Shown here in pieces: positions 8,922 to 23,124 of a stretch of DNA of 64,000 nucleotides. The translations under genes were made by a program, and so were the position numbers. This DNA is from Promicromonospora sp. MEB111 (lineage in GTDB: Bacteria > Actinomycetota > Actinomycetes > Actinomycetales > Cellulomonadaceae): positions 248,001 to 312,000 of the forward strand of contig NZ_JARVSD010000011.1 in the NCBI RefSeq assembly GCF_030209445.1, read 5' to 3'. A model generated the notes under the pieces. That model had not been told where the DNA came from. It saw only the letters and a program-made list of their open reading frames with translations, and did not search any database. Every line of letters begins with the position of its first letter. Position 1 is the first letter of the stretch.

Positions 8922-8943
8922 TGTCAGTGGCCACCGCTACTTT
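8922..8943 (+). promoter_or_regulatory. PafBC-type (RecA-NDp) DNA-damage promoter before the DUF4132 gene
   Basis: TGTCAGTG (8922-8929), 8 nt, then TA-N3-T (8938-8943) matches the published mycobacterial RecA-NDp/PafBC pattern TGTCRGTG-N8-TA-N3-T at every defined position. The predicted start of transcription is near 8950, leaving an untranslated leader of about 70 nt before the ATG at 9021. Confidence 0.8.
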
Positions 8944-9020
8944 GTGCGCGTGCTGCTGAAGGCGGCACGATCCAGGGGCGAGCTCTGCCCCGATGGCCGA
9001 CGACGACGTGATGGGGCGAG

Positions 9021-12000
9021 ATGCTGCAGGAGCTGATGGACCGGGTGCGGGGCGGCGACGAGACGGCGCGAGGCGTGGCGGATGCGCTGGCGCCGCTGTC
9101 GCTGATCAGCACCGGTCTGTACGAGGACGCGGTGGGTTACGTGCTGGAGGGCACGACGCCGGAGGTCCTGACCCAGGTGGCGTCCGCCGCCACGGACGAC
9201 GTCGACCGGCTGCTCGACCAGCCGGGCCGCACCACCTACTGGTCGAGCTGGGTCTCGCCCGACCTCGTCAAGAAGGTCGCCGCCCAGCACAAGAACTGGA
9301 CCACCGACAAGGGTGTCAACGGCCGTCGCCGTGTCTACGCCGTCGGCGCCATGGCGCAGGTGGTCCGTCTCGCCCGGCTGCTGGCGCAGGCCTGCGAGAC
9401 GGTCGAGATCCCGGGTGTGCCCGAGTGGCTCTCGCTCCTGGTGCACGACATCGGCCACATCGGCACGCCCAAGCGCAACCGTCCCGGCAACGGGGACCAG
9501 GCCACGCGCACGCGCTGGACGCCGGCGATGTTCGAGGAGGCCGCGGTCGAGGGCGGCGTGCCGGCCGACGACGCCCCGCGCACCGTGCTGGTGGCGATCG
9601 TGCACCGCTCCTCGAAGGGCCGCTCCTGGTACTCGGACGCCCGCGAGGGGATCATGAAGTCCGCCGCGTTCGGCGAGTTCGTGGGCCTGCACGCCGTGCT
9701 CCTGGCCGACGTCGTCCCCGGGCTGACCGCAGCGAGCAAGGAGGAGGTGCTCGACCGGATCGGCAAGCGCATCTCGACCCAGGAGGTCCCGAGCGACGAG
9801 TTCGCGCGGATCGTCGCGGGTCTCGCCGCCGACCCGGCCAAGGGCGTGCGCATCGCGGCGCTCCAGCACCTCGCGACCCTGCCCGACGACCGGCAGGTGG
9901 CGCTGCTCGCGCCCTTCCTGACCACGGCGAAGTCGGGAGCGCTCGGCGAGGCCGTGACGCGGCTGGCCGCGCTGGACGGTGGCCTCGCCGCGTGCGAGGC
10001 GGCGCTCGCCACGCTGCGCGACGAGAACGGGAAGATCGCGGCCGGGCAGGGCGCGCGCGTCAAGCTGCTGGAACAGACCGTCGAGCGCTCCCGCGCGCTG
10101 GAGACGCCCGCGCAGGACGTCGTCATCGACCTCCCGGAGTGGGAGTCGCTGCCCGACCCGGTGCTCGACGACGCGTGGGTCAAGCAGCTCCGCACCGACG
10201 TCGAGCAGGCGACCGCCCGGGCCCGGACCAACCTCGACGAGGCCCGGAAGAACGCGAAGGCCGGCGGCCACGACTGGGTGCTCAAGACCGCCCAGAACAA
10301 CCTCAAGCAGCTCGAGAAGATCACCGCCAAGGACGTCGAGGCCCTCCCGCGGGTGCTCACGGCGAAGGCTCCGGCTCGGCAGCTCGGCAGCTCGCCCCTG
10401 GTCGCCTGGCTCACGGACCGGCGCCACGAGCCGTTCGCCGACCAGGGCCTGATGTTCCACGTGCGCCTGCGGGCGCTGGTCCACGGCGGCCGCAGCGACG
10501 GCAACAACCTGCTGTGGAGCCTGCGCGGGCACCTCGACGAGATCACCGACCTGCGCCAGCTCCACGACGGCCTCGAGCGCGCCGGGATCCCGGACGTCGA
10601 GCGGCTCGTCACCGATCTCGTCCTGAACCGCTGGTGGGGGCACGAGGAGATCCCGGCGCCGGTCGCCTGGCCCTGGTTCGCCGAGCGCCCCGAGATCCTG
10701 GAACGCGCCCTGCGGACCGGGGACGGCGGCGAGCGCACCGGCAAGGCGCTCGCGATGCTGCGCGAGTTCCCCGCCCTGCCGCCGATGCTGCTGCCCAAGC
10801 TCACGGCGCTCGCGCTCGGTGCGGGCAAGACCCACCGTGTCACGGCGCAGCAGGTCCTGGAGGCCCACACCGGGGCGCGGTCCCTGGCCGAGCAGGCGCT
10901 CGCGGACAGCAAGGGCGAGGTGCGTGCGTCGGCCGCGGTTTGGCTCGCCCGCATCGGTGACCCCGCCGCGGTGCCCGCGCTGCGCGCCGCCCTGAAGAAG
11001 GAGCGTCGCGAGGCGGCGCGGGCCGCGCTGCTCTCGGCCCTGGAGACGCTCGGCGACGACATCTCGGCCGACCTCGCGCCGGAGATCCTGCTGGCCGAGG
11101 CCGTCAAGGGCCTCAAGGCGAGGATCCCGGCGAGCCTCGACTGGTTCCCGTTCGAGCAGCTCCCGGAGGTGCGGTGGGCGGGTGCTGCTGGTGCTGGGGC
11201 CGGTGCCGGGGTCGCCGGCGAGGCTGGCGGCGTCGTGCCGCGGGACGTCGTGCGCTGGTGGGTCGTCCTGGCCACCAAGCTGAAGGCGCCCAGCGGCGAG
11301 GGCCTGATCGCCCGGTACGTCGGGCTGCTGGACCCGGCCTCGCGGGCCGCGCTCGGCTCGTTCGTGCTGCGCGCCTGGGTCGCCCAGGACACCCGCAACC
11401 CGTCCGTGGAGCACTCCCGCGAGTACGCCGACCAGCACGCGCAGTCCCGCTGGGACAACCTGCAGTCCGCGATCAAGCGCTACCCCGAGTACTACTCGGA
11501 CCAGGCCGGGCAGACCGTCGAGGACTTCTGGAAGAGGCTCTACCGCGAGGACCAGGCCACGTATCTCGGGTCGGCCACGCAGGAGAAGGGGCTGCTCGCG
11601 CTGACCGTCGGGATGCCCGGGGCCGGGCTGGCGACGACCGCGCAGCACTACTTCGCCGCGCACAAGGGCCGCCGCGCCCAGGCCGAGTACCTGGTGCGGG
11701 CGCTCGCCGCCAACGGCGACCGGGCCGCGGTGCAGCAGCTGCTCGCGGTGTCACGCCGGTTCAAGCAGCGCACGGTCCAGGAGACGGCCGGGGTGCTCGC
11801 CCAGGACATCGCCGACCGCAACGGCTGGGACGGCGACCAGCTCGCCGACCGTACGGTCCAGACGGCCGGGTTCGACGACGACGGCATCCTGCGCCTCGAC
11901 CTCGGCGGACCCTCTGCTGCCGGGAACGACGGTGGCGCCGACGGCGGCGAGGCGCGCGTGGTCACCGGGCGCATCACCGAGGCGTTCACGCTCGAGCTGC

Positions 12001-12920
12001 GCAACCCGGCGGGCAAGGTCGTCAAGGCTCTGCCGGCCAAGCGCGCGTCCGACGACGACGAGGTGTATGCCGAGGCGAAGCGGCAGCTCAAGGAGTCGCG
12101 GGCCGAGCTCAAGGCCGTCGTCGCGCTGCAGACCCAGCGGTTCGCCGAGGCCATGGTCACGGGCCGCACGTGGAGCGCCGCCGACTGGCGCGAGTTCGTG
12201 CTGGGGCACCCGCTGATGTCCCGCCTGGCCGCGCGCCTGGTGTGGGCGGCGGAGCTGCCCGGCACTGATGGTGCTGCCGGTGCCGCCGGCGCGGGTACGA
12301 CGGCTGGCCCGACCGTGACGTTCCGGCCGGGCGACGGCGGCGCGCTGATCGGTGTCGACGACGAGGACGTCACCCTGCCGGACGACGCCCGGGTGTCGCT
12401 GGTGCACGCCGCCACCCTCGGGGACGACGACGAGACCGGCGCGCCCGCCTGGCGCGGCCACCTCGCCGACTACGAGATCACACCGCTGTTCGACCAGGGC
12501 CTGGGAGCCGAGGCGGACGACGCCGGCGGGCTGCCGGACCTGCCGGGTGAGGCCACCGTGGTCGACACCCGGAAGGGCTGGCTCAGCGACTCGTTCACGA
12601 TCCGCGGCCGTGCCACCAAGCTCGGGTACTCACGCTCGCAGGCCGAGGACGCCGGCTGGTTCTCGGCCTACCGCAAGGAGTACCCGACCCTCGACCTCAC
12701 GGTCGAGATCGAGTTCACCGGGGCGTTCCTGCCCGAGGAGAACATCACCGCGGCCGTCCAGGAGCTGGTGTTCCGCCGTACCGGGACGTGGGACGACCGG
12801 GGCCGGCTCAAGCTCAAGGAGGTGCCGAAGGTGCTGCTCGCGGTGTCCTACCGGGACTACGTGACCGTGGCCGAGGGCGGGGCCTTCGACCCGGACTGGG
12901 AGAAGAAGAGCCAGTACTGA
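9021..12920 (+). CDS. DUF4132 / HEAT-repeat protein (YehI/MolR-like), first gene of MoxR-VWA-SWIM system
   Basis: A 1299-residue protein. Residues 1-230 are helical and include LLVHDIGHIGTPKRN, where H142-D143 plus H146 resemble an HD-phosphohydrolase motif, though the usual upstream His is not evident. Helical repeats follow, clearest at about 630-685 (RASAAVWLARIGDPAAVPALR, a HEAT-like unit), then an Ala/Gly linker near 718-735. The C-terminal third (about 950-1150) is recognisable as DUF4132: FTLELRNPAGKVVKALP, EAKRQLKESRAELKAVV and HPLMSRLAARLVW. E. coli YehI (MolR) combines the same domain with neighbours YehL (AAA+), YehM (DUF5682), YehP (VWA) and YehQ (SWIM), and all four follow here in order. 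Function is unknown; a large scaffold or client-binding subunit for the MoxR/VWA pair is inference. Transcription should start at the PafBC-type promoter just upstream. Confidence 0.85.
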   Translation: MLQELMDRVRGGDETARGVADALAPLSLISTGLYEDAVGYVLEGTTPEVLTQVASAATDDVDRLLDQPGRTTYWSSWVSPDLVKKVAAQHKNWTTDKGVNGRRRVYAVGAMAQVVRLARLLAQACETVEIPGVPEWLSLLVHDIGHIGTPKRNRPGNGDQATRTRWTPAMFEEAAVEGGVPADDAPRTVLVAIVHRSSKGRSWYSDAREGIMKSAAFGEFVGLHAVLLADVVPGLTAASKEEVLDRIGKRISTQEVPSDEFARIVAGLAADPAKGVRIAALQHLATLPDDRQVALLAPFLTTAKSGALGEAVTRLAALDGGLAACEAALATLRDENGKIAAGQGARVKLLEQTVERSRALETPAQDVVIDLPEWESLPDPVLDDAWVKQLRTDVEQATARARTNLDEARKNAKAGGHDWVLKTAQNNLKQLEKITAKDVEALPRVLTAKAPARQLGSSPLVAWLTDRRHEPFADQGLMFHVRLRALVHGGRSDGNNLLWSLRGHLDEITDLRQLHDGLERAGIPDVERLVTDLVLNRWWGHEEIPAPVAWPWFAERPEILERALRTGDGGERTGKALAMLREFPALPPMLLPKLTALALGAGKTHRVTAQQVLEAHTGARSLAEQALADSKGEVRASAAVWLARIGDPAAVPALRAALKKERREAARAALLSALETLGDDISADLAPEILLAEAVKGLKARIPASLDWFPFEQLPEVRWAGAAGAGAGAGVAGEAGGVVPRDVVRWWVVLATKLKAPSGEGLIARYVGLLDPASRAALGSFVLRAWVAQDTRNPSVEHSREYADQHAQSRWDNLQSAIKRYPEYYSDQAGQTVEDFWKRLYREDQATYLGSATQEKGLLALTVGMPGAGLATTAQHYFAAHKGRRAQAEYLVRALAANGDRAAVQQLLAVSRRFKQRTVQETAGVLAQDIADRNGWDGDQLADRTVQTAGFDDDGILRLDLGGPSAAGNDGGADGGEARVVTGRITEAFTLELRNPAGKVVKALPAKRASDDDEVYAEAKRQLKESRAELKAVVALQTQRFAEAMVTGRTWSAADWREFVLGHPLMSRLAARLVWAAELPGTDGAAGAAGAGTTAGPTVTFRPGDGGALIGVDDEDVTLPDDARVSLVHAATLGDDDETGAPAWRGHLADYEITPLFDQGLGAEADDAGGLPDLPGEATVVDTRKGWLSDSFTIRGRATKLGYSRSQAEDAGWFSAYRKEYPTLDLTVEIEFTGAFLPEENITAAVQELVFRRTGTWDDRGRLKLKEVPKVLLAVSYRDYVTVAEGGAFDPDWEKKSQY

Positions 12921-12957
12921 GCCCTGTCCTGCCTGAGCTCTGTGCTGACTGAGCTCT

Positions 12958-12989
12958 GTGCTGCGCGGGTCGCGATACCCGCGCAGCAC
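12958..12989 (+). terminator. 13-bp perfect hairpin after the DUF4132 gene
   Basis: Arms 12958-12970 and 12977-12989 are exact complements with a 6-nt loop CGCGAT. There is no T run. It lies 38 nt after the DUF4132 stop and before the gene remnant, so it may attenuate transcription into the MoxR gene, which has its own promoter. Confidence 0.55.
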
Positions 12990-13059
12990 GGCTCGCTCAG
13001 CCGCTCCTGGCCGCGGGACCGATCGACGAGCTCCGGCTCATCAGCGGCGCATCGCCGCC

Positions 13060-13235
13060 GTGTCGGTGACACCCGCGCCTACACCAAGTACCCGCGTCCC
13101 GGCGTCACCGTGGAGATCGCGTTCACCGGCGCCCACCTGGCGGCGGCGCTCGTCGCGGTCTCGGACCGGGCGTACGTGACGGTGGCCCAGGCAGGGTCGT
13201 TCGACCCCGACCGGGCGAGGAAGAGCAGGTTCTGA
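13060..13235 (+). pseudogene. Remnant duplicate of the DUF4132 C terminus
   Basis: The frame ending at 13235 encodes AYTKYPRPGVTVEIAFTGAHL, then VSDRAYVTVAQAGSFDPDRARKSRF. The end of the intact DUF4132 protein reads AYRKEYPTLDLTVEIEFTGAFL, then VSYRDYVTVAEGGAFDPDWEKKSQY. The two are clearly homologous, with about 33 residues missing from the middle of the remnant. The 5' part of this open frame (from 12942) shows no similarity and no ribosome site. It is therefore a degraded copy of the gene's 3' end, left by a tandem duplication or by loss of a second DUF4132 paralogue. A second PafBC-type promoter follows within 16 bp. Confidence 0.75.
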
Positions 13236-13250
13236 GCTGACCTACGGCGG

Positions 13251-13272
13251 TGTCAGTGGCTCCCGCTACCTT
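13251..13272 (+). promoter_or_regulatory. Second PafBC-type (RecA-NDp) promoter, before the MoxR gene
   Basis: TGTCAGTG (13251-13258), 8 nt (GCTCCCGC), TA (13267-13268), N3, T13272 again fits TGTCRGTG-N8-TA-N3-T exactly. Sequence around it resembles the first promoter (shared GTGTCAGTGGC and CCGCTAC), as expected if promoter and upstream gene were duplicated together. The MoxR ATG is 130 bp downstream. Confidence 0.8.
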
Positions 13273-13401: not shown

Positions 13402-14532
13402 ATGACCACGGACACCACCATCTCAGCCGGCACGACCGCCGATGCCGAGATCCGCCCGCCCGCCGAGATCCGTTACGCCGCCGAGCTGGCGACGCTCGAC
13501 GCCTGGGACACCGAGCGCGGGCACGAGCGACCCCCGGGCTGGCGGCTCAGCCCGCGGGCCGTGCGGGCGTTCGTCGTGGGCTCCGAGGAGCTCGGCGTGA
13601 CCCGCAAGTTCTACGGTGACGACCCGCTGGTGGACCGCGCCGTCGTCTCCCTGATGGGGCGGCAGGGCCTGATGCTCGTGGGTGAGCCCGGCACGGCCAA
13701 GTCGATGCTGTCGGAGCTGCTGTCGGCGGCGGTGTCGGGCAGCTCGACCCTGACGGTGCAGGGCACCGCGGGCACCACCGAGGACCACGTCCGGTACTCG
13801 TGGAACTACGCGCTCCTGGTGTCCGAGGGGCCGAGCGAGCGGTCGCTGGTGCCGTCGCCGATCTGCACGGGTATGCGCGAGGGGCGTGTCGTGCGCTTCG
13901 AGGAGATCACGCGTTGCGCGCCCGAGATCCAGGACACGCTCGTGTCGATCCTGTCGGAGAAGCAGCTGATGGTCCCCGAGCTCGGGCCCGACGCGCGGGT
14001 CGCCGCCCGCCCCGGCTTCACCGTGATCGCGACGGCGAACCTCAAGGACCGCGGTGTGCACGAGATGTCGGCGGCCCTCAAGCGCCGGTTCAGCTTCGAG
14101 ACCGTGGCGCCGGTGCGCGACCGCGCGTTCGAGATCGAGCTGGTGCAGCGCCAGCTCGCGGCCGAGCTGGGACCGGAGGGCGACCGCCCCGAGGTGCCGC
14201 GCGACGTGCTCGAGGTGCTGGTCACCGTCTTCCAGGACCTGCGGACGGGCAGCACCCGCGAGGGCGCGCCGGTCAAGCGACCGGAGACGGTCATGTCCAC
14301 GGCCGAGGCCGTCAACGTCGCCGTCGCCGCCTCGCTGGAGGCCCGGTACCTCGGCGACGGCACGGTGACCGCCGCCGAGGTGGCGCGGCAGGTCGCGGGC
14401 GTGGCGCTCAAGGGCGAGGAGGAGGACGCGCGCCGGCTGCGGCACTACGTGGACAACGTGGTGCGCGAGCGTGCCCGCACCGACGCGCGCTGGAAGGCGT
14501 TCTTCACCGCGGCAGAACCGCTGTGGCGGTGA
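13402..14532 (+). CDS. MoxR-family AAA+ ATPase (YehL-like)
   Basis: A 376-residue AAA+ protein. Walker A is GEPGTAKS (94-101), Walker B is VVRFEE (163-168), sensor 1 is FTVIATANLKDRG, and the arginine-rich SAALKRRFSFETV follows at about 225-240. A C-terminal helical lid follows, ending VRERARTDARWKAFF. MoxR ATPases act as chaperones that, with a VWA-domain partner, remodel or activate a client or insert a cofactor. AAGGA lies about 7 nt upstream of the ATG. The stop overlaps the GTG of the DUF5682 gene by 4 bp. A dedicated PafBC-type promoter precedes the gene, so the last four genes can be expressed without DUF4132. Confidence 0.93.
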   Translation: MTTDTTISAGTTADAEIRPPAEIRYAAELATLDAWDTERGHERPPGWRLSPRAVRAFVVGSEELGVTRKFYGDDPLVDRAVVSLMGRQGLMLVGEPGTAKSMLSELLSAAVSGSSTLTVQGTAGTTEDHVRYSWNYALLVSEGPSERSLVPSPICTGMREGRVVRFEEITRCAPEIQDTLVSILSEKQLMVPELGPDARVAARPGFTVIATANLKDRGVHEMSAALKRRFSFETVAPVRDRAFEIELVQRQLAAELGPEGDRPEVPRDVLEVLVTVFQDLRTGSTREGAPVKRPETVMSTAEAVNVAVAASLEARYLGDGTVTAAEVARQVAGVALKGEEEDARRLRHYVDNVVRERARTDARWKAFFTAAEPLWR

Positions 14533-17500
14533 CGGGCGGGGCGGGCGCGGGCGCCGTCTGGGATCTCGCGCCGCAGCGCCTGCGCTCGGCAGCGGACGCC
14601 GTCGGACGGCTGCAGACCGAGCGTGGCATCTACTTCGCGCCGGTGCGGCACCACAGCCCGGCGTGCGCCGTGGCGGTGCGCGCGGCGATCGAGGAGCTGC
14701 GGCCGGCCGCAGTCCTCATCGAGGGGCCGGAGGAGTTCACGCGGCTCATCCCGGACCTGCTGCACGAGGCGACCCGGCCGCCGATCGCGGTGCTGAGCCT
14801 CGGCGGCCCGGCTGGTTCGGGTACGGGCTCCACGGCGGAGACGGGCGACCGCGAACCCGGGGAGGGCGCCGGCTTCTACCCGCTCGCGTCCTTCTCCCCG
14901 GAGTGGGTCGCCCTGCACGCGGGGCGTGACGTCGGTGCGGAGCTCAGGTTCATCGACCGCTCCTTCGGCGAGCGGTCGGCGGCGGAACGCGCGGTCTCGG
15001 GGCCCGGCGGTTCTGGGCCAGCCGGCTTCGGACCGGACGCCTCAGGGCCGGGTGCCGGCCCGGGCCACGGGCCGGACGTCGCCGCTCAGCCCGATCCGTT
15101 CGCGCGGACGCTCATGTCCGAGCGGTACCTGGCGCACTCTGAGGCGGTCGCGACGCTCGCGCGTCGGCTCGGGTGCCGCGACCACGACGAGGTGTGGGAC
15201 CACCTGTTCGAGTCCCGGCGCAGTGCCGAGCTGGCCGACTGGCGGGCCGTCTTCGACGACGTCTTCGCGTGGGCGGCGCTCGCGCGTCTCGACTACGAGG
15301 AGGGTGTGCTCGACGCCGACGGGTCCCTGGACCGTGAGGCGCGAATGTCGGCCCGTGTGGCTGAGGCGGCGGCAGAAGCAGTGGCAGGGGCGGGCGGACC
15401 GGTGCTCGTCGTGACCGGGGCCTTCCACACGCTCGCCCTGGTGGAGGCCCTGTCCGGCGCGCCGGAGGGCGCTCCGGTGCGCGACCGGCAGCCCGAGGGC
15501 GGCTTCGGCCCGGTGGCCGAGGGCGAGGCCTGGCTGGTGCGCTACGACCACGAGCGGCTCGACGGGCTGCGCGGGTACGGCGCGGGCATGCCCTCGCCCG
15601 GCTACTACGAGCGCCTGCACGCGGCGCACCTGCGGGAGCTGGCGGTCGAGGGCACGGCTTTCCCGGCGTTCGGCTCGGTCGGCGCGACCGGCGCGACAGG
15701 CGCGACAGGCGCAATCGGTGCCACTGCCGCGACCTCTGCGGCGAAGCCTGGGTCGACGAAGCGTCGGTCCGCGAAGGGCAGCGCGGTTTCCGGTACCGCG
15801 GCGACTGGTCCAGCGGCGACCGGTACTGCGGCGAGCGGCACTGCGGCAGGCGCTGCGGGCACGGTGTCCGCGGCGTCCGGTCCTGTCGGCGCTCGCGCCC
15901 TCGCCGCGGAGATCCTGGTCGACGTCGCCCGGGGCGCCGTCGACCGGGGGCACGCCGTGAGCCTGCCGCAGGTGGGGGCCGCCGCGGCGTCCGCGACCCG
16001 GCTCGCGGACCTGCGCGAACGCGCCTTCGCCGGCCGCACCGACCTGCTGGACGCGATGCGTTCGTGCTACGTGCAGGACGACGGCGGCGTCGGCGGACCG
16101 GGCGAGCCGGAGCGGCCGCTGGGGCTGGCGATCGCCGAGGTGTTCGGCGGCCGGGCCCTGGGGGAGGTGCCGCCCGGCAGCGCGTCGCCGCCGCTCGTAC
16201 GCGACGTGCGCAAGCGGGTGCGGGCGGTACGGCTCGTCGTCGACGACTCGCTGCCGCGCACGGCCCGCCTGGACGCGCGCCGGACGGCGTCGCACCGCGC
16301 CAAGCGTCAGGTGCTGGCGCTGCTCGACTTCGTCGGGGCTGGTTTCGGGCAGCTGGTCTCGGGTCCGGACCACGTGGCCGGCCGTGGGCTGGGCCTGATC
16401 ACGGAGGAGTGGCAGTACTGCTGGACGCCGCTGGTCGAGGCACGGCTGGTGGAGATGGTGCACCTCGGCGCGACGCTCGAGGCGGTCGCGGTCGCCCGGC
16501 TGTACGAGGCGGAGGCGCGGCTCGCCGGCACCGGGGCGGGCTCGGTGCCCGGGGCAGCGGCCGCGTCGGTCGACGCCCTCGCGCGGCTCGTCGCGCAGGC
16601 GCTCGTGATCGGGATGGGTTCGCACCTGCCCCGGATCGTCACCCTGCTGCGGGTCACCCTCGACACCGACCGCGACGTCGACTCCGTCGTCTCGGGCGCG
16701 CGCCGGCTGCTCGGGCTGTGGCAGGCACGGGTCGAGCTGGGTGCGGAGGAGTACGCGGGCGAGCTGCTCGACCTGGTGAGCCAGGCACTCGCGACGGCTG
16801 CCTACCTGGTCAGCGACCTGGGCAAGGTCCGGGCCGAGGACGAGGACGCCGCGATCGGGACGCTGATCGGCCTGCGCTCCCTGCTGCGGGACGCGGCGGC
16901 AGCAGACGGCGGCGCGGCGGACGGCAGCGCGGCAGACGGCGGCGCGCCCGACAACGTCGTGCGTGACGGCGGTGCGAGCCGAGCCGACGGCGCGGCCAAC
17001 CGCATCGCCGTCGAGCGCGAGCTCGCGCGCCTGCGCGATGACGAGGGCACCGCGCCCGCCGTGGCGGGCGCCCTGCTCGCCCTGGGCTTCACCGACGGCG
17101 AGGTGGCTGACGACGTCCTGGTCACCCGGGTGCGTGGCGCCCTGTCCGCGGGGGCGGACCCGGGAGCGGCCGTGCGGTTCCTCGGCGGCGTGATGCGCGC
17201 CGCGCCGGACCTGATCCTGCACACGCCGGAGATGTTCGACGCCGTGGACGACGCGCTGCGCACGCTCGACGGCGACGCGTTCCTGGCGGTGCTGCCGGAC
17301 CTGCGGCGGGCCTTCACCTGGCTGCGTCCCACCGAGACGCACCGGCTGGCCAAGCGTGTGGCCGAGCGAACCGGCGCGCGGGTGGACCAGGTGGACGTGC
17401 GGGTCGCGCTGTCGGAGGAGGACCTGGCGACCGGCCTGGTGCTGGACCGGGAGCTGGTCGCGGTGCTGGAACGGGACGGGCTGGCCCACTGGGGCCCGGC

Positions 17501-17591
17501 GACGGAAGCGACCAGAGCCGTGGGCGCCGCCGGCGTTTGCACGGCAGGAGTCGGTATTGCACAGGTCGGCACGGCAGGAGGAGAAGCATGA
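14529..17591 (+). CDS. DUF5682 protein (YehM-like) of the MoxR-VWA system
   Basis: A 1020-residue protein. GTG at 14529 overlaps the MoxR stop (GTGA), and GTG 14523 in the same frame is the alternative. The N-terminal segment IYFAPVRHHSPACAVAV with ELRPAAVLIEGPEEF is the DUF5682 signature (RHH plus VLIEGP), a fold suggested in the literature to be related to ChaN/EreA-like enzymes; the two histidines could be metal or catalytic residues (inference). The middle (about 375-460) is a low-complexity Gly/Ala/Thr/Ser linker encoded by 9-bp tandem units. The C-terminal half is helical. Another Ala/Gly/Asp-rich insert is at about 790-825. It sits between MoxR and VWA genes with overlaps on both sides, so it is a constant component of the complex. 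Confidence 0.8.
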   Translation: MTGGAGAGAVWDLAPQRLRSAADAVGRLQTERGIYFAPVRHHSPACAVAVRAAIEELRPAAVLIEGPEEFTRLIPDLLHEATRPPIAVLSLGGPAGSGTGSTAETGDREPGEGAGFYPLASFSPEWVALHAGRDVGAELRFIDRSFGERSAAERAVSGPGGSGPAGFGPDASGPGAGPGHGPDVAAQPDPFARTLMSERYLAHSEAVATLARRLGCRDHDEVWDHLFESRRSAELADWRAVFDDVFAWAALARLDYEEGVLDADGSLDREARMSARVAEAAAEAVAGAGGPVLVVTGAFHTLALVEALSGAPEGAPVRDRQPEGGFGPVAEGEAWLVRYDHERLDGLRGYGAGMPSPGYYERLHAAHLRELAVEGTAFPAFGSVGATGATGATGAIGATAATSAAKPGSTKRRSAKGSAVSGTAATGPAATGTAASGTAAGAAGTVSAASGPVGARALAAEILVDVARGAVDRGHAVSLPQVGAAAASATRLADLRERAFAGRTDLLDAMRSCYVQDDGGVGGPGEPERPLGLAIAEVFGGRALGEVPPGSASPPLVRDVRKRVRAVRLVVDDSLPRTARLDARRTASHRAKRQVLALLDFVGAGFGQLVSGPDHVAGRGLGLITEEWQYCWTPLVEARLVEMVHLGATLEAVAVARLYEAEARLAGTGAGSVPGAAAASVDALARLVAQALVIGMGSHLPRIVTLLRVTLDTDRDVDSVVSGARRLLGLWQARVELGAEEYAGELLDLVSQALATAAYLVSDLGKVRAEDEDAAIGTLIGLRSLLRDAAAADGGAADGSAADGGAPDNVVRDGGASRADGAANRIAVERELARLRDDEGTAPAVAGALLALGFTDGEVADDVLVTRVRGALSAGADPGAAVRFLGGVMRAAPDLILHTPEMFDAVDDALRTLDGDAFLAVLPDLRRAFTWLRPTETHRLAKRVAERTGARVDQVDVRVALSEEDLATGLVLDRELVAVLERDGLAHWGPATEATRAVGAAGVCTAGVGIAQVGTAGGEA

Positions 17592-18880
17592 GCGCGACCG
17601 ATCAGGCGGTGCCCGATCTCGAGGTGTCTGATCCCGTGGTGCCCGCCGTCCTTGGGGCGCCCCAAGGCGTTCAGACGTCCGAAAACCTTGAGGCGCCCGA
17701 ACCAGCCCCGTCTGTCTCGGACGACGAGGCCGCCCGGCGCTGGCGCCTGGTGCTGGGCCGGTACGCGGCCGACGAGCTACAGGTGGGGCAGCAGGACCAG
17801 GGGCTGGAGCGGTCGCTGCGGTACCTGTACGACCGCGAGTACACGGCCCGCGGGCACCGCGTCGGCCGAGGCACGGGTCCGGGCGAGGGCGGCGGAGCGC
17901 GCGGCGGCAGGGGTGCGGGACTCGGCGGGTCCCAGCCGCACGGCGTGGACGTGACCGCGCTCGGCTGGCTCAGCGAGGCCGGCAGCCTGTTCCCGCGGGA
18001 GACCTTCGAGCGCATGCAGGTCGACGCCGTCAGCCGCTACGGCCTGACCGAGCTGCTGCAGGACGAGACCGCGCTCGAGACCCTCGAACCGTCGCGTGAG
18101 CTCGCCGTCGCGATGCTGCAGGTCCGGGGCGCCCTGAGCGAGCAGGCCGCGTCCGGGCTGCGGCGCATCATCCGCCGGGTCGTCGATGACGTGGTGCGAC
18201 GGCTGCGACCCCGGTTCACCACGGCGGTCAACGGCCGCATCGACCGGTCGCGCCGGTCGATGCACCGGGTCGCGCGGAACTTCGACTGGAAGCGCACGCT
18301 GCGCGCCAACCTTGGCCGCGTCGACGCCGAGGGCCGGATGACGGTGGAGGACGTCCGCTTCTCCGCGCGTGCCAAGCGGACCCTGACCTGGGACGTCATC
18401 CTGCTCGTCGACCAGTCGGGCTCGATGGCGCCGTCGCTGCTGTACTCCGCGGTGTGTGCGGGAATCCTGTCGGGGCTGCCCGGCATCAACGTGCAGCTCT
18501 ACCTGTTCGACACCTCGGTGGTGGACATGTCGCACCTGGCCGCAGACCCCGTCGAGGTCCTGATGACCGCGCAGCTCGGCGGCGGCACCGACATCGCACG
18601 GGCGGTGCGGCACGCCGAGCAGCAGGTCCGCAACCCGTCGCGGACCGTGGTGGCGCTGGTCAGCGACTTCTACGAGGGCGGATCGGTGTCCAACCTGCTG
18701 ACGACGGTGCGCCGCATGGCGTCCTCCGGCGTCACCATGCTGGGGCTCGCCGCCCTGGACGAGGCGGCCGAACCCGTCTACGACCAGGGCACCGCCCGGC
18801 ACCTGGCCGAGTGCGGCATGGAGGTCGCCGCGCTCACGCCCGAACGTTTCGCCGAGTGGTTGGGGGAGGTGCTCTCATGA
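17588..18880 (+). CDS. VWA-domain protein (YehP/CoxE-like), MoxR partner
   Basis: A 430-residue protein. The ATG at 17588 overlaps the previous stop (ATGA) and has AGGAGGAG 4 nt upstream. The C-terminal VWA domain (about 265-425) has a complete metal-ion site: DQSGS (275-279), the Thr in GGGTD, and the Asp in VSDFYEGG. The N-terminal half is helical and basic, with a Gly-rich linker near 90-110 and FDWKRTLRANLGR just before the VWA domain, as in CoxE-type proteins. In known MoxR systems the VWA protein presents the client to the ATPase. Its stop overlaps the start of the SWIM gene. Confidence 0.9.
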   Translation: MSATDQAVPDLEVSDPVVPAVLGAPQGVQTSENLEAPEPAPSVSDDEAARRWRLVLGRYAADELQVGQQDQGLERSLRYLYDREYTARGHRVGRGTGPGEGGGARGGRGAGLGGSQPHGVDVTALGWLSEAGSLFPRETFERMQVDAVSRYGLTELLQDETALETLEPSRELAVAMLQVRGALSEQAASGLRRIIRRVVDDVVRRLRPRFTTAVNGRIDRSRRSMHRVARNFDWKRTLRANLGRVDAEGRMTVEDVRFSARAKRTLTWDVILLVDQSGSMAPSLLYSAVCAGILSGLPGINVQLYLFDTSVVDMSHLAADPVEVLMTAQLGGGTDIARAVRHAEQQVRNPSRTVVALVSDFYEGGSVSNLLTTVRRMASSGVTMLGLAALDEAAEPVYDQGTARHLAECGMEVAALTPERFAEWLGEVLS

Positions 18881-20994
18881 GCGACCGGAAGACCTACGCG
18901 TGGGCGGCGCCCTACGCGGGCCTGGACGACGACGCGCTCAAGGCGCTCGGCAACGCCGGCCTGCTGCGCCGCGCCCGCAAGGACACCGTGACCGAGGTGT
19001 CGCTCGACGCCAAGGGTGCGGTGCTCGACGTGTCCGGCGTCGCGGTGCGCGTGGACGGCCGCGGCCCGGCCGCGGTCGCGTGCGACTGCCCGACGGCGGG
19101 GGTGTGCCAGCACGTCGTCGCCGCCTGCCTGTGGGCGATCGGGATCGCGCCCGACGTGGTGTCGGCGGACGCAGCGGCGGTCGTCGCGCAGTCCGTGCCC
19201 AGGGCGGGATCCGCGGCAGGACCTGGTGCGCTGACCGGATCTGGCCCGACCGCCGGACCCGGTGGGGCCGCAGGGCCCGGCGGGCCGGCAGGTGCGGGTG
19301 ACGGCGCAGCGGGCGCGCCCGGCGGTGCGGGTGCGGCCGGTTCGGCCACCGGGTCCGCAGCCCCCGGCGCGGCGGCGGGCCGCGCCCCGTCCGCGGCGGT
19401 AGTGAAGCGCCGTCGCGAGGCGCTCGCGGAGGTGCGCGACGTCGTCGGGCGGCTCATGTCGGGCGGCCTGTCCCACCTCGGGGCGGACGACGCGGAGTCG
19501 CTGACCGCACTGGCCGGCCGGGTGCGGGTCGCCGGGTTCGACCAGGTCGCGCCCGACCAGGTCGGCAACGTGCGGTTCGACGGTCTCATCCGGGTCGCCG
19601 GCGGCCTCGTCGCGGGCCTCGCCGGTCGCGACGACGCCGTCACGGAGTCCGACCTGCTCGACGCCTTCGCCGAGGTCTGGGCGATGTGCGAGGTGCTGGA
19701 ACGCGCGACGGACCCGGCGGCAACTGCCGGTGCAGGACCCACGACAGCGTCGGGTGCCGCGGGAGTTCCGGGAGATGCTGGTGGCGGTTCGGGCGATGCC
19801 GTCAGCACCTTGGGCGCCGTCGCCGGCGTTTCGGGCGTTGCCGCTGGTGCGTCGGGCAGCGCCGCGAGCACGTCGGGCCGCGCAGCGACAGGCAGTGCAG
19901 CGGCAGGCCGGGGGCGCGGGCCCGGCAAGGGCACGGACGACGAGATCGACATCTCCCGCTGGGTGCCGCTCGGGGCCCGCTGGTGGACGTCGCAGAGCGG
20001 GTCGCGCGGCCTGGCCTACCTGGGTTGGGACGCCGAGACCGAAGCTGGCGCGCCCGCCACGGCGGACGCCGGCCAGGTACGGCAGGTCGTGACCGGCCGG
20101 CCGTCGGGCAGCGACCCGAGGTTCCAGCGGAGCTGGACCAGCCCGCTCCTGTGGAACAGGTCCCTGAGCACGCTGTGCGAGGGCGCGTTCGCCCTGACGA
20201 AGGTGCGGACCAAGCCTGACGGCGGCCTCGGCGCGGGCGGCACGCCCGTGCTCCAGCGCCTGGACGGCGACGGGTTCGCCCTCGAGGAGCTCCGCGTGAT
20301 CGCGGAGCGCACGGGGGCGGGCGTGCGGCCGCGCGACGTCGTCGGGTTCGGTCGCCGTCCGGCGAACGTCCGGCTGGTACTGGTCCGCGACGTCGGCGAG
20401 GTCGGCATCGACGAGGTGCGGCAGGAGCTCACGCTCGCCGTCGTCACCTCGGACGGCGAGACGCGGCAGCTGCGCCTGCCGGCCGCGGGGGAGCAAGCGG
20501 TCCAGACGCTGCTGTCCGTGCGGTCCAGGCTGGTCGCGGTGACGATCGAGCGCCGCGAGGACCGGGACGAGCCGGTCGGCCTGTTCGTGCGCGACAAGGG
20601 TGCGATCCGCCTGGTCAGCCCCACGATCACGCCCGCCTGGTCGCTCGAGAACAGCCACTGGGACTTCTGGCGCAAGCGGATCCGCAAGCTCAAGGCCCAG
20701 GCGTCCTCGGCAAAGGTCGTCCGGCCGCCGACGGCGCCGCCGCCCCCGGTGCGCCGCGTGGCGCTGCTGCTGGGCGACGTCCTGCTCGCCGCGGCAGCCA
20801 CGGGCCGGCCGGCGCTCACGGTGCGGCAGCGGTCCGACGTCGAGCAGGCGCGCGTGCTTGCCCGGGACCTCGGGCTCGCGACACTGGAGCGGACGGCCCA
20901 GGGCCTCCTGGCCGGCGAGCTGACACCGCCCGCGGTGCTGCACGCCGCCTTCGTCGTGGGCCGGGCCCGAGCTGTGGCGGACGTCGCGGGTTGA
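18877..20994 (+). CDS. SWIM zinc-finger protein (YehQ-like)
   Basis: A 705-residue protein. The ATG at 18877 overlaps the VWA stop (ATGA). The SWIM zinc ligands are C69, C71, C77 and H79 (CDCPTAGVCQH, C-x-C-x5-C-x-H), a module that binds DNA or proteins in other families. Two long low-complexity Gly/Ala/Pro/Ser/Thr segments (about 108-170 and 280-350) separate a helical middle (about 172-280) from a conserved-looking C-terminal half with ISRWVPLGARWWTSQSGS and LAVVTSDGETRQLRLP. It is the last gene of the five-gene run. Because SWIM domains often touch nucleic acid, it may link the MoxR/VWA machine to DNA (inference), in keeping with the damage-type promoters. Confidence 0.88.
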   Translation: MSDRKTYAWAAPYAGLDDDALKALGNAGLLRRARKDTVTEVSLDAKGAVLDVSGVAVRVDGRGPAAVACDCPTAGVCQHVVAACLWAIGIAPDVVSADAAAVVAQSVPRAGSAAGPGALTGSGPTAGPGGAAGPGGPAGAGDGAAGAPGGAGAAGSATGSAAPGAAAGRAPSAAVVKRRREALAEVRDVVGRLMSGGLSHLGADDAESLTALAGRVRVAGFDQVAPDQVGNVRFDGLIRVAGGLVAGLAGRDDAVTESDLLDAFAEVWAMCEVLERATDPAATAGAGPTTASGAAGVPGDAGGGSGDAVSTLGAVAGVSGVAAGASGSAASTSGRAATGSAAAGRGRGPGKGTDDEIDISRWVPLGARWWTSQSGSRGLAYLGWDAETEAGAPATADAGQVRQVVTGRPSGSDPRFQRSWTSPLLWNRSLSTLCEGAFALTKVRTKPDGGLGAGGTPVLQRLDGDGFALEELRVIAERTGAGVRPRDVVGFGRRPANVRLVLVRDVGEVGIDEVRQELTLAVVTSDGETRQLRLPAAGEQAVQTLLSVRSRLVAVTIERREDRDEPVGLFVRDKGAIRLVSPTITPAWSLENSHWDFWRKRIRKLKAQASSAKVVRPPTAPPPPVRRVALLLGDVLLAAAATGRPALTVRQRSDVEQARVLARDLGLATLERTAQGLLAGELTPPAVLHAAFVVGRARAVADVAG

Positions 20995-21048
20995 CCAAGT
21001 CGCGGTTGACCACGTGGCGGGTTGACCACGTGGCGGGTTGACCAACCT
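20986..21048 (+). repeat. Four tandem 16-bp units (GCGGGTTGACCACGTG type)
   Basis: Units at 20986-21001, 21002-21016 (one base short), 21017-21032 and 21033-21048. The first overlaps the SWIM gene's end. Each contains TTGACC, like a -35 hexamer, so the array could hold promoter or operator sites; slippage is the simpler explanation. Confidence 0.6.
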
Positions 21049-21292
21049 GCCCGTCCCGGCCGGTGCTCCGGCCGGGACGGCGGCGGTACGCACCCGCCTG
21101 CCTGGAGCACCGGCGGGCTGTTTCATCTCCGTCCCCCGATCGCTCGGAGCGGGCTGCCCGCCGGGTGGATCTCCCGGCCGTGGCGGTCAACGAGGGTCCA
21201 GCCGGAGTGGATGCATTTCCGTGCCTCGCGCCAGGTCTCCTGCGAGGTTTCCTGCCGGGCGAGGGGCTGCACGTACCGGGGCTCCGACAGAG

Positions 21293-21314
21293 TGTCAGAG
21301 GCGCACGGCAGACT
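21293..21314 (+). promoter_or_regulatory. Imperfect PafBC-type promoter before the DNA polymerase gene
   Basis: TGTCAGAG (21293-21300), 8 nt, CA-N3-T (21309-21314) differs from TGTCRGTG-N8-TA-N3-T at two positions. The 8-nt gap to the ATG at 21322 would give a leaderless transcript, common in Actinobacteria. Confidence 0.4.
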
Positions 21315-21321
21315 GGGTCCC

Positions 21322-23124
21322 ATGCACACGGTGGTCTCGCGGGACGGCTCCGGCATCGGCCTGCGGCCGGTGTCCGACACGGGCGTGCCCGAGGGGGAGC
21401 CGCGGGTCGTCGAGACGTCCGCCCTGGCGCAAGAGGTGGCGCGCGACGAGGCGGCTCACGTGCGATGGACCTGGGACGACACCAACGGCTGGTACCCCGA
21501 GTTCCTCGCCGAGGGCGTCCGGGTCGACCGGGCGCACGACCTCCGGCTCGCGCACGCGGTGCTTCGCGCCTCGACCCTGTCGGCGCACACGGCGCTCGCC
21601 GAGGCCGGGGCTACGGCCTGGGACCGGCTCACCCCCATCCCGCCCCCGGGCGGGCCGACGGCGGCCGCCCTCGTCCGGCCCGATCGGCACCCCGGCGCCG
21701 AGGCACTCTTCGACCTCGGCGAGAGTGGACCCGCCGCCACCGTCCCAGCCGGCAGTGCAGCAGACGACCCTGTCGACCCGCTCGACCCCGTCACGGAGCT
21801 GGCCGCCCAGCTCCTCGCGATCAAGGACAGCACCGACCCCGGGCGGCTCCGCCTCCTGCTCGCGGCGGAGTCGGCGGGCGCGCTGGCCGCCGCCGAGATG
21901 CATCACGCCGGCCTCCCGTGGCGCGGCGACGTCCACGACGAGATCCTCACCGAGGCCCTCGGGCCGCGGCCGCGGCCGGGTGCACGGCCCGCGAAGCTCG
22001 AGGCACTGGCCCAGAAGATCCGGGCCGCGCTGGACGCCCCGCCCACACTCAACCCCGACTCCCACCAGGACCTGCTGCGCGCCATGGAGTACGCGGGCGT
22101 GGGCTCGCGCAGCCTGCGCAAGTGGGAGCTGGAGAAGCTCGACCACCCCGTGATCGCGCCGCTCCTGGAGTACAAGAGCCTCTACCGCCTCTATACCGCG
22201 AACGGCTGGAACTGGCTCGACACCTGGGCGCCTGACGGCCGGTTCCGCATGGAGTACGTCGTGGGCGGCGTGGTCACCGGCCGCTGGGCCAGCACGGGCG
22301 GCGGCGCGCTCCAGCTCCCGCACAACGTGCGGCGCGCGGTGGTCTCCGACCCGGGCTGGACCTTCGTCGTGGCCGACGCCGCCCAGCTCGAACCACGCGT
22401 GCTGGCCGCCCTGGCGCGCGACGAGCGCATGGCCGCCGCCGGCCGCACCAAGGACGGGGCGAGCACCGACATGTACGCGGGGATCGTCGCCACGGGCGCT
22501 GTCGACTCCCGCGAGCACGCCAAGGTGGGCATGCTCGGCGCCATGTACGGGGGTACGACCGGCGTCAGCGCCCAGGTGCTGCCGCGGCTCGCCCGGGCGT
22601 TCCCGCAGGCCATCGAACTGGTCGAGCGCGCGGCCCGGGCGGGGGAGCGCGGCGAGGTGGTCACCACCCGGCTCGGCCGCAGCTCGCCGCTTCCAGGGGA
22701 GTCGTGGGCCGCCGTGCAGGGCTCCGCGTTCGACGAGGACGCCGGCGCCGACGCCCAGTCCCGCGCCCGCAGCCAGACCCGGTCCTGGGGCCGGTTCACC
22801 CGGAACTTCGTCGTGCAGGGCACCGCGGCGGAGTGGGCGCTGTGCTGGATCGCGTCCATCCGCCGTCGACTCTGGGCGCTCGGGGAGGATGCGTCCGACG
22901 GCGCCCCCGGGCTTGCCCCGGCGCCGTTCGACCGCCGGCCGCACCTCGTGTTCTTCCTGCACGACGAGATCGTGGTGCACGCCCCGGCGGCGCTCGCCGA
23001 CGTCGTCGCGCAGGAGGTGCGCGCCGCCGCGGAGGAGGCCGGCCGGCTCCTGTTCGGTGACTTCCCCGTCGACTTTCCGCTCAGCGTCGCCGTGACCGAG
23101 AGCTACGCGGACGCGAAGGGCTGA
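21322..23124 (+). CDS. Family A DNA polymerase (bifunctional 3'-5' exonuclease/DNA polymerase type)
   Basis: A 600-residue protein of the short PolA-like family found in many Actinobacteria. The polymerase motifs are present: motif A FVVADAAQLEPRVLAALARD with D352, motif B KVGMLGAMYGGTTG, and motif C FFLHDEIVVHAP with H547-D548-E549. The N-terminal 170 residues fall where a 3'-5' exonuclease domain would be, but the DxE metal site is not evident, so proofreading may be lost. The ATG at 21322 is chosen over frame extensions up to 300 bp longer because those translate to low-complexity sequence. A leaderless start 8 nt after a weak damage-type promoter fits. It may act in repair synthesis together with the operon upstream (inference). 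Confidence 0.85.
   Translation: MHTVVSRDGSGIGLRPVSDTGVPEGEPRVVETSALAQEVARDEAAHVRWTWDDTNGWYPEFLAEGVRVDRAHDLRLAHAVLRASTLSAHTALAEAGATAWDRLTPIPPPGGPTAAALVRPDRHPGAEALFDLGESGPAATVPAGSAADDPVDPLDPVTELAAQLLAIKDSTDPGRLRLLLAAESAGALAAAEMHHAGLPWRGDVHDEILTEALGPRPRPGARPAKLEALAQKIRAALDAPPTLNPDSHQDLLRAMEYAGVGSRSLRKWELEKLDHPVIAPLLEYKSLYRLYTANGWNWLDTWAPDGRFRMEYVVGGVVTGRWASTGGGALQLPHNVRRAVVSDPGWTFVVADAAQLEPRVLAALARDERMAAAGRTKDGASTDMYAGIVATGAVDSREHAKVGMLGAMYGGTTGVSAQVLPRLARAFPQAIELVERAARAGERGEVVTTRLGRSSPLPGESWAAVQGSAFDEDAGADAQSRARSQTRSWGRFTRNFVVQGTAAEWALCWIASIRRRLWALGEDASDGAPGLAPAPFDRRPHLVFFLHDEIVVHAPAALADVVAQEVRAAAEEAGRLLFGDFPVDFPLSVAVTESYADAKG

Follow-up and report, generated by a model that had tools for sequence, protein, structure and literature searches.

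A five-gene operon of Promicromonospora sp. MEB111, encoding DUF4132, MoxR, DUF5682, VWA, and SWIM proteins, carries one exact match to the RecA-NDp/PafBC promoter motif before its first gene and a second before its MoxR gene. The operon lies within positions 248,001 to 312,000 of contig NZ_JARVSD010000011.1, a stretch of 64,000 nucleotides (nt) that we analyzed and refer to as the window. We put the probability that both sites are PafBC-dependent, LexA-independent DNA damage promoters at about 0.82. The initial annotation had proposed that the sites act as PafBC-type promoters, a proposal favored by a PafC gene in the same genome, by the repair genes that the motif precedes, by a recurring distance from motif to start codon, and by conservation of the motif before related operons.

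Two exact promoter motifs in the window

Site 1 (forward strand, 8922 to 8943; TGTCAGTGGCCACCGCTACTTT) is a predicted RecA-NDp/PafBC-type promoter in which the half-site TGTCAGTG is combined with the -10 element TACTTT, and predicted promoter site 2 (forward strand, 13251 to 13272; TGTCAGTGGCTCCCGCTACCTT) combines the same half-site with TACCTT. Every defined base of TGTCRGTG-N8-TA-N3-T, the consensus reportedly given by Gamulin et al. in 2004, is matched by both sites, both of which open with GTGTCAGTGGC; a motif scan of the window thereby bore out the positions, the exactness, and the common start described in the initial annotation. These are the only two exact matches on either strand of the window, for which a mean of 0.01 is expected by chance (100 dinucleotide shuffles, none with two matches). 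Site 1 is separated by 77 nt from the DUF4132 start codon (9021), and site 2 by 129 nt from the MoxR start codon (13402). The motif pattern is validated internally, because exact sites precede recA in this genome and in its relatives.

Exact matches number 55 in the whole genome (6.23 Mb, 35 contigs), compared with none for the reversed pattern. A script placed an open reading frame (ORF) downstream of 44 of the 53 other sites and none at 9; 40 of these ORFs were scanned with Pfam, those at L150, L162, L164, and L182 being left out. Repair, replication, or recombination genes make up 17 of the 40 and, with short gene names read from their domains, encode two MGMT-family proteins, DnaX, RecR, an HhH-GPD glycosylase, an AlkZ-like glycosylase, UvrA, UvrB, UvrC, UvrD, Mfd, a PDDEXK_1 nuclease, RadA, an RNase_T/GIY-YIG nuclease, GyrB, RarA, and RecA. 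A DEAD-box helicase, a phage-type integrase, and a proteasomal ATPase were not counted among the 17, and the other 20 motif-led genes include transporters, hydrolases, a sigma factor, a glycosidase, acetyltransferases, and DUF proteins, with two lacking a match. At 11 of the 53 other sites (L149, L156, L157, L159, L160, L161, L163, L176, L179, L184, and L185), the start codon stands at exactly the 7th base past the -10 box, a spacing that points to leaderless damage-induced transcripts from true promoters. PafC is encoded in the genome (HTH_PafC at C34:282018, 118.5 bits; cutoff, 32), and three frames of L196, scanned for a pafB/pafA neighborhood, had no NCBIfam match.

Conservation upstream of related operons

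Matches to the MoxR protein of the window occur in 106 of 394 genomes of the class and in 17 of 59 relatives, with the source genome included in both counts. The sample consisted of 50 actinobacterial loci from 48 genomes, namely, the 37 class matches that ranked highest once the window itself was set aside (54 to 61% identical) and 13 relatives (at least 70%); the remaining matches, among them four relatives at 46 to 49% identity, were left out. The stretches fetched reached from 12 kb before MoxR to about 6.5 kb after it and totaled 967 kb. An exact coding-strand site, whose absence before orthologous operons had been named in the initial annotation as evidence against its proposal, lies upstream in 30 of the 50 loci, compared with 1.58 expected from each genome's own site density over the 12 kb upstream. 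The remaining loci divide evenly into those with a one-mismatch site upstream (10 of 50) and those with none (10 of 50). All 31 exact coding-strand matches fall upstream of MoxR and none downstream, and as neutral controls, the opposite strand yielded one match and the reversed pattern none over the 967 kb. Outside the genus, 24 of 41 loci have an exact site, with 1.08 expected.

Such counts make it exceedingly improbable that the sites are chance matches or have been kept only through flanking DNA that is not yet diverged. Conservation by flanking DNA would fit the alignment of the 5' region within the genus, in which other parts of the leader are conserved as well; a chance origin was rejected on the window shuffles (0.01 matches expected), the reversed pattern, the confinement of matches to one strand and to the upstream side, and the counts relative to expectation, including those outside the genus. 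Another candidate, SOS control of the window operon, was likewise rejected: no SOS box (GAAC-N4-GTTC) was found within 250 bp of either window site or of any of the 31 exact sites in related loci.

The two sites are not equally well kept within the genus. The operon is present in nine other genomes of the genus, seven of them shared with loci L035 to L041; in these nine, site 1 is exact in five and has one mismatch (TGTCAGAG) in four. Conservation within the genus thus holds for site 1, which appears to be the conserved control, and mostly not for site 2 before MoxR, which, being poorly kept by comparison, appears to be accessory.

In Streptomyces, an exact site is present in all three plasmids fetched from the five named plasmids with a 54 to 55% identical MoxR; the distance from the site to the DUF4132 start codon is 84 and 85 nt in the two that are annotated, the third being unannotated. 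The streptomycete operons differ in content, with a 288-amino-acid (aa) DUF4132 protein, a protein of about 1640 aa, MoxR, DUF5682, and one final protein. L187 has a DUF5682-VWA fusion, and no site was found at the Nonomuraea locus. In a related genus, two opposed exact RecA-NDp sites, with starts 54 bp apart, stand before the DUF4132 gene (L117:7939-8014).

Covariation with the recA promoter

The state of the operon site mostly follows that of the site before recA. Both were compared in 27 of 29 genomes, 12 of which belong to one genus, in a comparison designed after the operon data had been seen; G579 and G602, in both of which the operon site is exact, were left out because recA went unread (P-loop text not found). 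The site before recA is exact in 19 of the 27 genomes, has one mismatch in 3, and is missing in 5. Those 19 genomes include 13 in which the operon site is exact too, 5 in which it has one mismatch, and 1 from which it is absent; the corresponding numbers in the other 8 genomes are 1, 1, and 6 (with kinship ignored, Fisher P = 0.013 for exact sites and P = 0.0006 with one mismatch allowed). Half-site variants are also shared between the two promoters, with TGTCRGAG at both in G666 and TGTCGGTC at both in G259 and G386, the operon site of G386 having two mismatches in all. Because the operon sites and half-site variants mostly follow the state of the recA promoter, the sequences point to an operon promoter that evolves with the PafBC regulon.

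This covariation bears on whether the sites answer to some other regulator with a similar motif (e.g., another WYL activator) instead of PafBC, which we regard as highly improbable. The genome does have four further, weaker HTH_PafC-like matches, and some lineages possess PafC but lack the motif at both recA and the operon. Against this stand the occurrence of the same motif before recA and classic repair genes and its tendency to shift with recA down to the half-site variants shared in G666, G259, and G386.

Several observations weigh against PafBC control of the operon through these two sites. The expected counts given above overstate significance because the loci are related, with 21 of the 50 coming from one genus (f6g7). 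Site 2 is exact in only one of the nine other genus genomes with the operon, has one mismatch in three, and is absent from five. In f82, an exact site is present at 2 of 10 loci and missing from the other 8. A recA site without an operon site occurs in G311, and the reverse is seen at one of the two loci of G474. PafC was found in all 32 genomes tested, those without a site included, so that presence of the regulator does not guarantee a site; loss of the regulator was thus ruled out as the cause of missing sites.

All 12 genomes examined from genus f6g7 have an exact recA site, 260 to 261 bases before the P-loop codons (L238, L239, L241 to L244, L246 to L248, L250, L251, and L254). This genus is probably Streptomyces, because one of its genomes is 97.5% identical over the operon to a Streptomyces atratus plasmid. 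These exact sites stand against a published remark that the PafBC motif is seemingly not conserved in Streptomyces venezuelae.

Distant MoxR-DUF5682 paralogues

Twenty loci of more distant paralogues (42 to 46% identical), hand-picked from lower-ranked matches, were meant as a negative control. In seven of them (L206 to L212), an exact match stands on the coding strand about 3.5 kb ahead of MoxR, a placement confirmed by the Streptomyces fungicidicus locus L237, where 44 nt separate the site from the first annotated gene. In seven others (L216, L217, L219 to L222, and L225), the strand opposite MoxR carries an exact site no more than 0.8 kb before this gene, and the MoxR strand carries a recurring site whose one mismatch replaces TA with CA in the -10 element, an arrangement that makes a two-way damage promoter possible in this MoxR-DUF5682-VWA subfamily; six of these seven have a further exact site about 10 kb upstream. 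The 6 loci without an exact site include four with a one-mismatch site about 3 kb before MoxR. Since the paralogue loci so often carry RecA-NDp sites themselves, they failed as a neutral control, and the reversed pattern, the opposite strand, and the downstream side serve instead.

Organization of the operon

The five genes lie on the forward strand, and the names given to them in the initial annotation agree with their domains. The first (9021 to 12920) encodes a 1299-aa DUF4132 protein with HEAT repeats (Pfam DUF4132, 108.8 bits, and HEAT_2), a YehI/MolR-like scaffold whose closest named relatives are at seven Promicromonospora loci (66 to 80% identity). After a 481-base gap containing site 2 come a 376-aa YehL-like AAA+ ATPase of the MoxR family (13402 to 14532; MoxR-type AAA_5, 128.6 bits), a 1020-aa YehM-like DUF5682 protein with a GTG start at 14529 (14529 to 17591; 304 bits on a longer frame), and a 430-aa YehP-like VWA protein of CoxE type with an ATG start at 17588 (17588 to 18880; VWA_CoxE, 169.6 bits on a longer frame). 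The last gene (18877 to 20994; ATG start at 18877) encodes a 705-aa YehQ-like SWIM zinc finger protein that has no Pfam match and is named from its CxCx(n)CxH motif alone (CDCPTAGVCQH at residue 69). Stop and start codons overlap between MoxR and DUF5682 (GTGA), DUF5682 and VWA (ATGA), and VWA and SWIM (ATGA); each of the last three genes can thus start within the preceding stop, and the MoxR-DUF5682-VWA-SWIM block looks translationally coupled. A strong G+C hairpin without a T-run after the SWIM stop (forward strand, 21047 to 21081; fold of 21035 to 21095, -43.6 kcal/mol, z = -4.64) is a possible transcript end.

Of the seven named Promicromonospora loci, six have all five genes in the same order, the exception being L039, which stops short of MoxR. 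Loci of Providencia, Massilia, and Pseudomonas share this order, whereas it differs in the Acinetobacter and Rudaea loci. MoxR is at least 93% identical in 10 of 13 genomes of the genus, the source genome included, and 55 to 62% identical to its counterparts in the Pseudomonadota loci (L043 to L048, L050, L051, L053, L054, and L056 to L058).

Directly downstream of the operon, a gene at 21022 to 23124 encodes a bifunctional 3'-5' exonuclease/DNA polymerase (NF011538, 719 bits); because the match does not begin until residue 101, translation probably starts near 21322. A homologue is also found close downstream of the operon at L036, L037, and L040, and at L037 a one-mismatch RecA-NDp site (L037:21567) stands immediately before the match. 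Promicromonospora sp. AC04 (L039:10001-20988 and L110) has at least four tandem DUF4132 genes, the first and fourth of which are preceded by exact RecA-NDp sites.

The C-terminal part of a DUF4132 homologue was modeled at a predicted local distance difference test (pLDDT) score of 85.5 as HEAT-type repeats together with a small alpha/beta domain; its last domain has a YugN-like match (Z = 9.6), and in the model DUF4132 looks like a HEAT scaffold. Across 11 sequences, DUF5682 keeps R-H-H-S-P, E, and H residues unchanged, and it has no Foldseek match under 0.001 and no sequence relative in the PDB. Its first domain bears a weak likeness to HopBA1 (5t09; VIA Z 7.4; root mean square deviation [rmsd], 4.9; 160 residues aligned), which we take to have a TIKI/EreA-like fold (TIKI/EreA/ChaN superfamily), and the comparison with 7w5z_E gave a Z of 10.2 (rmsd, 4.4; 196 aligned). 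No sequence relative of the VWA protein was found in the PDB at 0.01.

Counterparts in Deinococcus and Escherichia coli

Damage-inducible counterparts of this operon have been published, so the initial annotation's remark that it knew of no such report is wrong in part: E. coli molR is listed as LexA regulated, and ddrTUVWX and DRA0165-DRA0166 of Deinococcus are induced by radiation or mitomycin under IrrE/DdrO. Deinococcus ddrTUVWX (Deide_18730 to Deide_18690) is a five-gene operon of unknown function with a SWIM protein first and a CoxE-like VWA protein last; its first gene is among the most radiation induced, depends on IrrE, and has an RDRM (the DdrO motif) upstream (PMC5552922). A plasmid operon of Deinococcus taeanensis reads SWIM-DUF5691-MoxR-small gene-DUF5682-VWA, and from its content and order relative to the published description we infer that it is ddrTUVWX, with DUF5691 in place of DUF4132. 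Its SWIM gene is preceded, at a distance of 19 nt, by a palindrome that resembles the RDRM at 9 of 10 core bases and is the only match of at least 8/10 in 19 kb; by itself this palindrome is weak evidence, because shuffles give 0.74 such matches. The window operon works like the ddrTUVWX type but is not a member of it, since ddrTUVWX begins with SWIM and has DdrO as its regulator, whereas in the window DUF4132 comes first and SWIM last.

In Deinococcus radiodurans, DRA0165-DRA0166 (DUF4132) and DR2173 (WGR) are of unknown function and have an RDRM upstream, and their protein levels, that of DRA0166 among them, increase with mitomycin C in the wild type and not in an irrE mutant (PMC8533742). 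They are likened to the window by description, and the available text mentions no MoxR-VWA block beside them. A plasmid of Hymenobacter radiodurans (L235) carries a SWIM-DUF5691-MoxR-DUF5682 operon in which DUF5682 is annotated in three pieces and no VWA gene is annotated.

In E. coli MG1655, the order is metG-yehF-yehH(pseudogene)-yehI-yehK-yehL-yehM-yehP-yehQ. The window shares with this locus DUF4132 (YehI), MoxR (YehL), YehM, VWA (YehP), and SWIM (YehQ) in the same order, the SWIM motif of YehQ being CSCGANGMCRH at residue 70, but E. coli adds the WGR gene yehF, the pseudogene yehH, and yehK, and its regulator LexA is a repressor. A LexA-box-like site, AACTGGATAAAATTACAGGG, agrees with the consensus at 13/20 positions and ends 7 nt ahead of the yehF start codon. 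We take molR to be yehF/yehH, the WGR gene heading the yeh locus, and AACTGGATAAAATTACAGGG is presumably its published LexA box; the letters of this box were found in no LexA paper and turned up only in a leuO paper. Listings of LexA-regulated genes include molR (PMC11039860, PMC3978071, PMC4576408), and DR2173 is reported to share a WGR domain with MolR, itself described as LexA regulated (PMC8533742). No paper on the function of the yeh genes was found in the open-licence literature.

The LexA link is tempered by other counts. A second 13/20 match occurs in the same 25 kb of E. coli, so the box score alone is not significant, and a 14/20 match with one core mismatch lies inside yehM. No LexA-like box (CTG-N10-CAG, at least 13/20) was found anywhere in the 14 Pseudomonadota loci other than E. 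coli (L043 to L048, L050, L051, L053, L054, L056, L057, L058, and L231) or in two plasmid loci (L230 and L233). A plain CTGT-N8-ACAG scan gave four matches (L043, L044, L051, and L054), all far from an operon head. Matches to alpha-type, UmuDAb, and Xanthomonas patterns were scattered; those of the UmuDAb kind (up to three mismatches) are common in Acinetobacter loci, and one of them (L043:9792) is near a DUF4132 start. LexA control as a general rule outside actinobacteria is not supported by these 14 loci, and damage control of machines of this kind is therefore repeated but not universal.

A proposed role in the damage response

PafBC is activated by single-stranded DNA (ssDNA) and recruits RNA polymerase-sigma A to promoters (PMC11804915), from which it follows that the operon would be switched on by damage without RecA or LexA. 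The mycobacterial PafBC regulon, with its recA and repair gene promoters and ssDNA-activated sigma adaptation, resembles the situation in this genome, although it was described in mycobacteria (PMC11804915). In Mycobacterium smegmatis, loss of pafBC lowers the amounts of MoxR1, MoxR2, and one vWF protein (PMC5656591), a likeness in names. As ssDNA accumulates, ssDNA-loaded PafBC would let the housekeeping RNA polymerase start at both sites; site 1 would drive DUF4132, and read-through together with the accessory site 2 would supply the coupled MoxR-DUF5682-VWA-SWIM block. From sequence, we infer strongly that the operon is under PafBC control and induced by damage, and more weakly that its five products form one physical complex.

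MoxR proteins with VWA partners have been proposed to capture a substrate peptide and release it remodeled (PMC7159879). In the proposed complex, the MoxR AAA+ ring and its VWA adaptor would be the motor, DUF4132 (a HEAT scaffold, linked to WGR in several relatives) and SWIM the recognition parts, and DUF5682 a hydrolase-like or adaptor part, and the machine would remodel protein-DNA complexes at damage. Among the loci scanned for it, WGR is fused to DUF4132 in two actinobacterial relatives (L130 and L134) and is present in E. coli yehF. A WGR link is a trait of some yeh-type members and is no requirement of the type; the DUF4132 protein of the window has no WGR match in Pfam, which does not help this assignment. 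An AAA+ remodeler of protein-DNA complexes is our best guess from the parts and the regulon, and that such a complex is the substrate is itself a guess, one that may well prove wrong.

The main rival holds that the operon is an anti-phage or conflict system, its MoxR-VWA core boosted by damage and its promoter a sensor of attack and no sign of a role in repair; we consider this unlikely, though less so than any other alternative. Infection damages DNA, so a damage promoter could indeed sense attack. MoxR-vWA cores have been proposed as conflict systems in actinobacteria, and the ternary systems of Kaur et al. (2020) combine a MoxR AAA+ protein, a vWA partner, and a third component, as the window does (PMC7159879). 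Relatives of the operon also occur on plasmids (some of these records being chromosome sized) and beside restriction genes in Iodobacter. The window proteins, however, have no match over the Pfam cutoff to VMAP, iSTAND, FtsH, or beta-propeller domains and have DUF5682 and DUF4132 instead (bpMoxR scores 25.6 bits, below its cutoff of 27), and PADLOC 2.0 (library of 2023) returned 0 matches for 7 proteins. Gene content is kept from Promicromonospora to Providencia and Massilia, in contrast to the swapped effectors of those systems, and the presence of a closely similar MoxR in most genomes of the genus likewise speaks against a conflict role. SWIM, YehL, LexA, and DNA damage do not occur in the text of the paper on the conflict systems (PMC7159879).

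MoxR proteins serve cofactor enzymes, and VWA_CoxE is the top Pfam match of the VWA gene; hence, MoxR-VWA might be a metal- or cofactor-loading chaperone (compare CoxD-CoxE and the name MolR) whose damage control matures or protects a repair enzyme. This is distinctly less likely than a conflict role: molR was named for molybdate use, but the molybdate genes moeA and moeB were unchanged while DUF4132 and WGR genes were strongly up (PMC8533742), and Pfam identifies no cofactor enzyme among the five genes.

With damage promoters under PafBC still the preferred reading, what looks new is the PafBC control, together with the joining of related machines under PafBC, DdrO, and LexA. No report of PafBC control of such an operon was found in the open-licence literature, and the published accounts of damage-inducible counterparts in Deinococcus and E. 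coli do not, in the text available, state that these are one kind of machine. Tentatively, and with the odds somewhat against so broad a claim, the MoxR-DUF5682-VWA-SWIM family, with interchangeable WGR/DUF4132 or DUF5691 recognition proteins, may be a core and so far unrecognized arm of the bacterial damage response. On this reading, it came separately under PafBC in Actinomycetota, under DdrO in Deinococcota, and under LexA in E. coli, and its direct targets would be DNA-protein complexes that are damaged or blocked, which would make it a counterpart in role of the eukaryotic AAA+ extraction machines.

A conserved five-gene AAA+ system of unknown function thereby gains a testable setting. 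Related machines appear to answer to three unrelated damage regulators, namely, an activator (PafBC), a self-cleaving repressor (LexA), and a protease-cleaved repressor (DdrO). Whether the machine helps cells to survive DNA damage is therefore a question that can be put to E. coli K-12, Deinococcus, and Streptomyces alike. The switch found in many actinobacteria, together with the published links in Deinococcus and E. coli, points to a widespread damage response machine.

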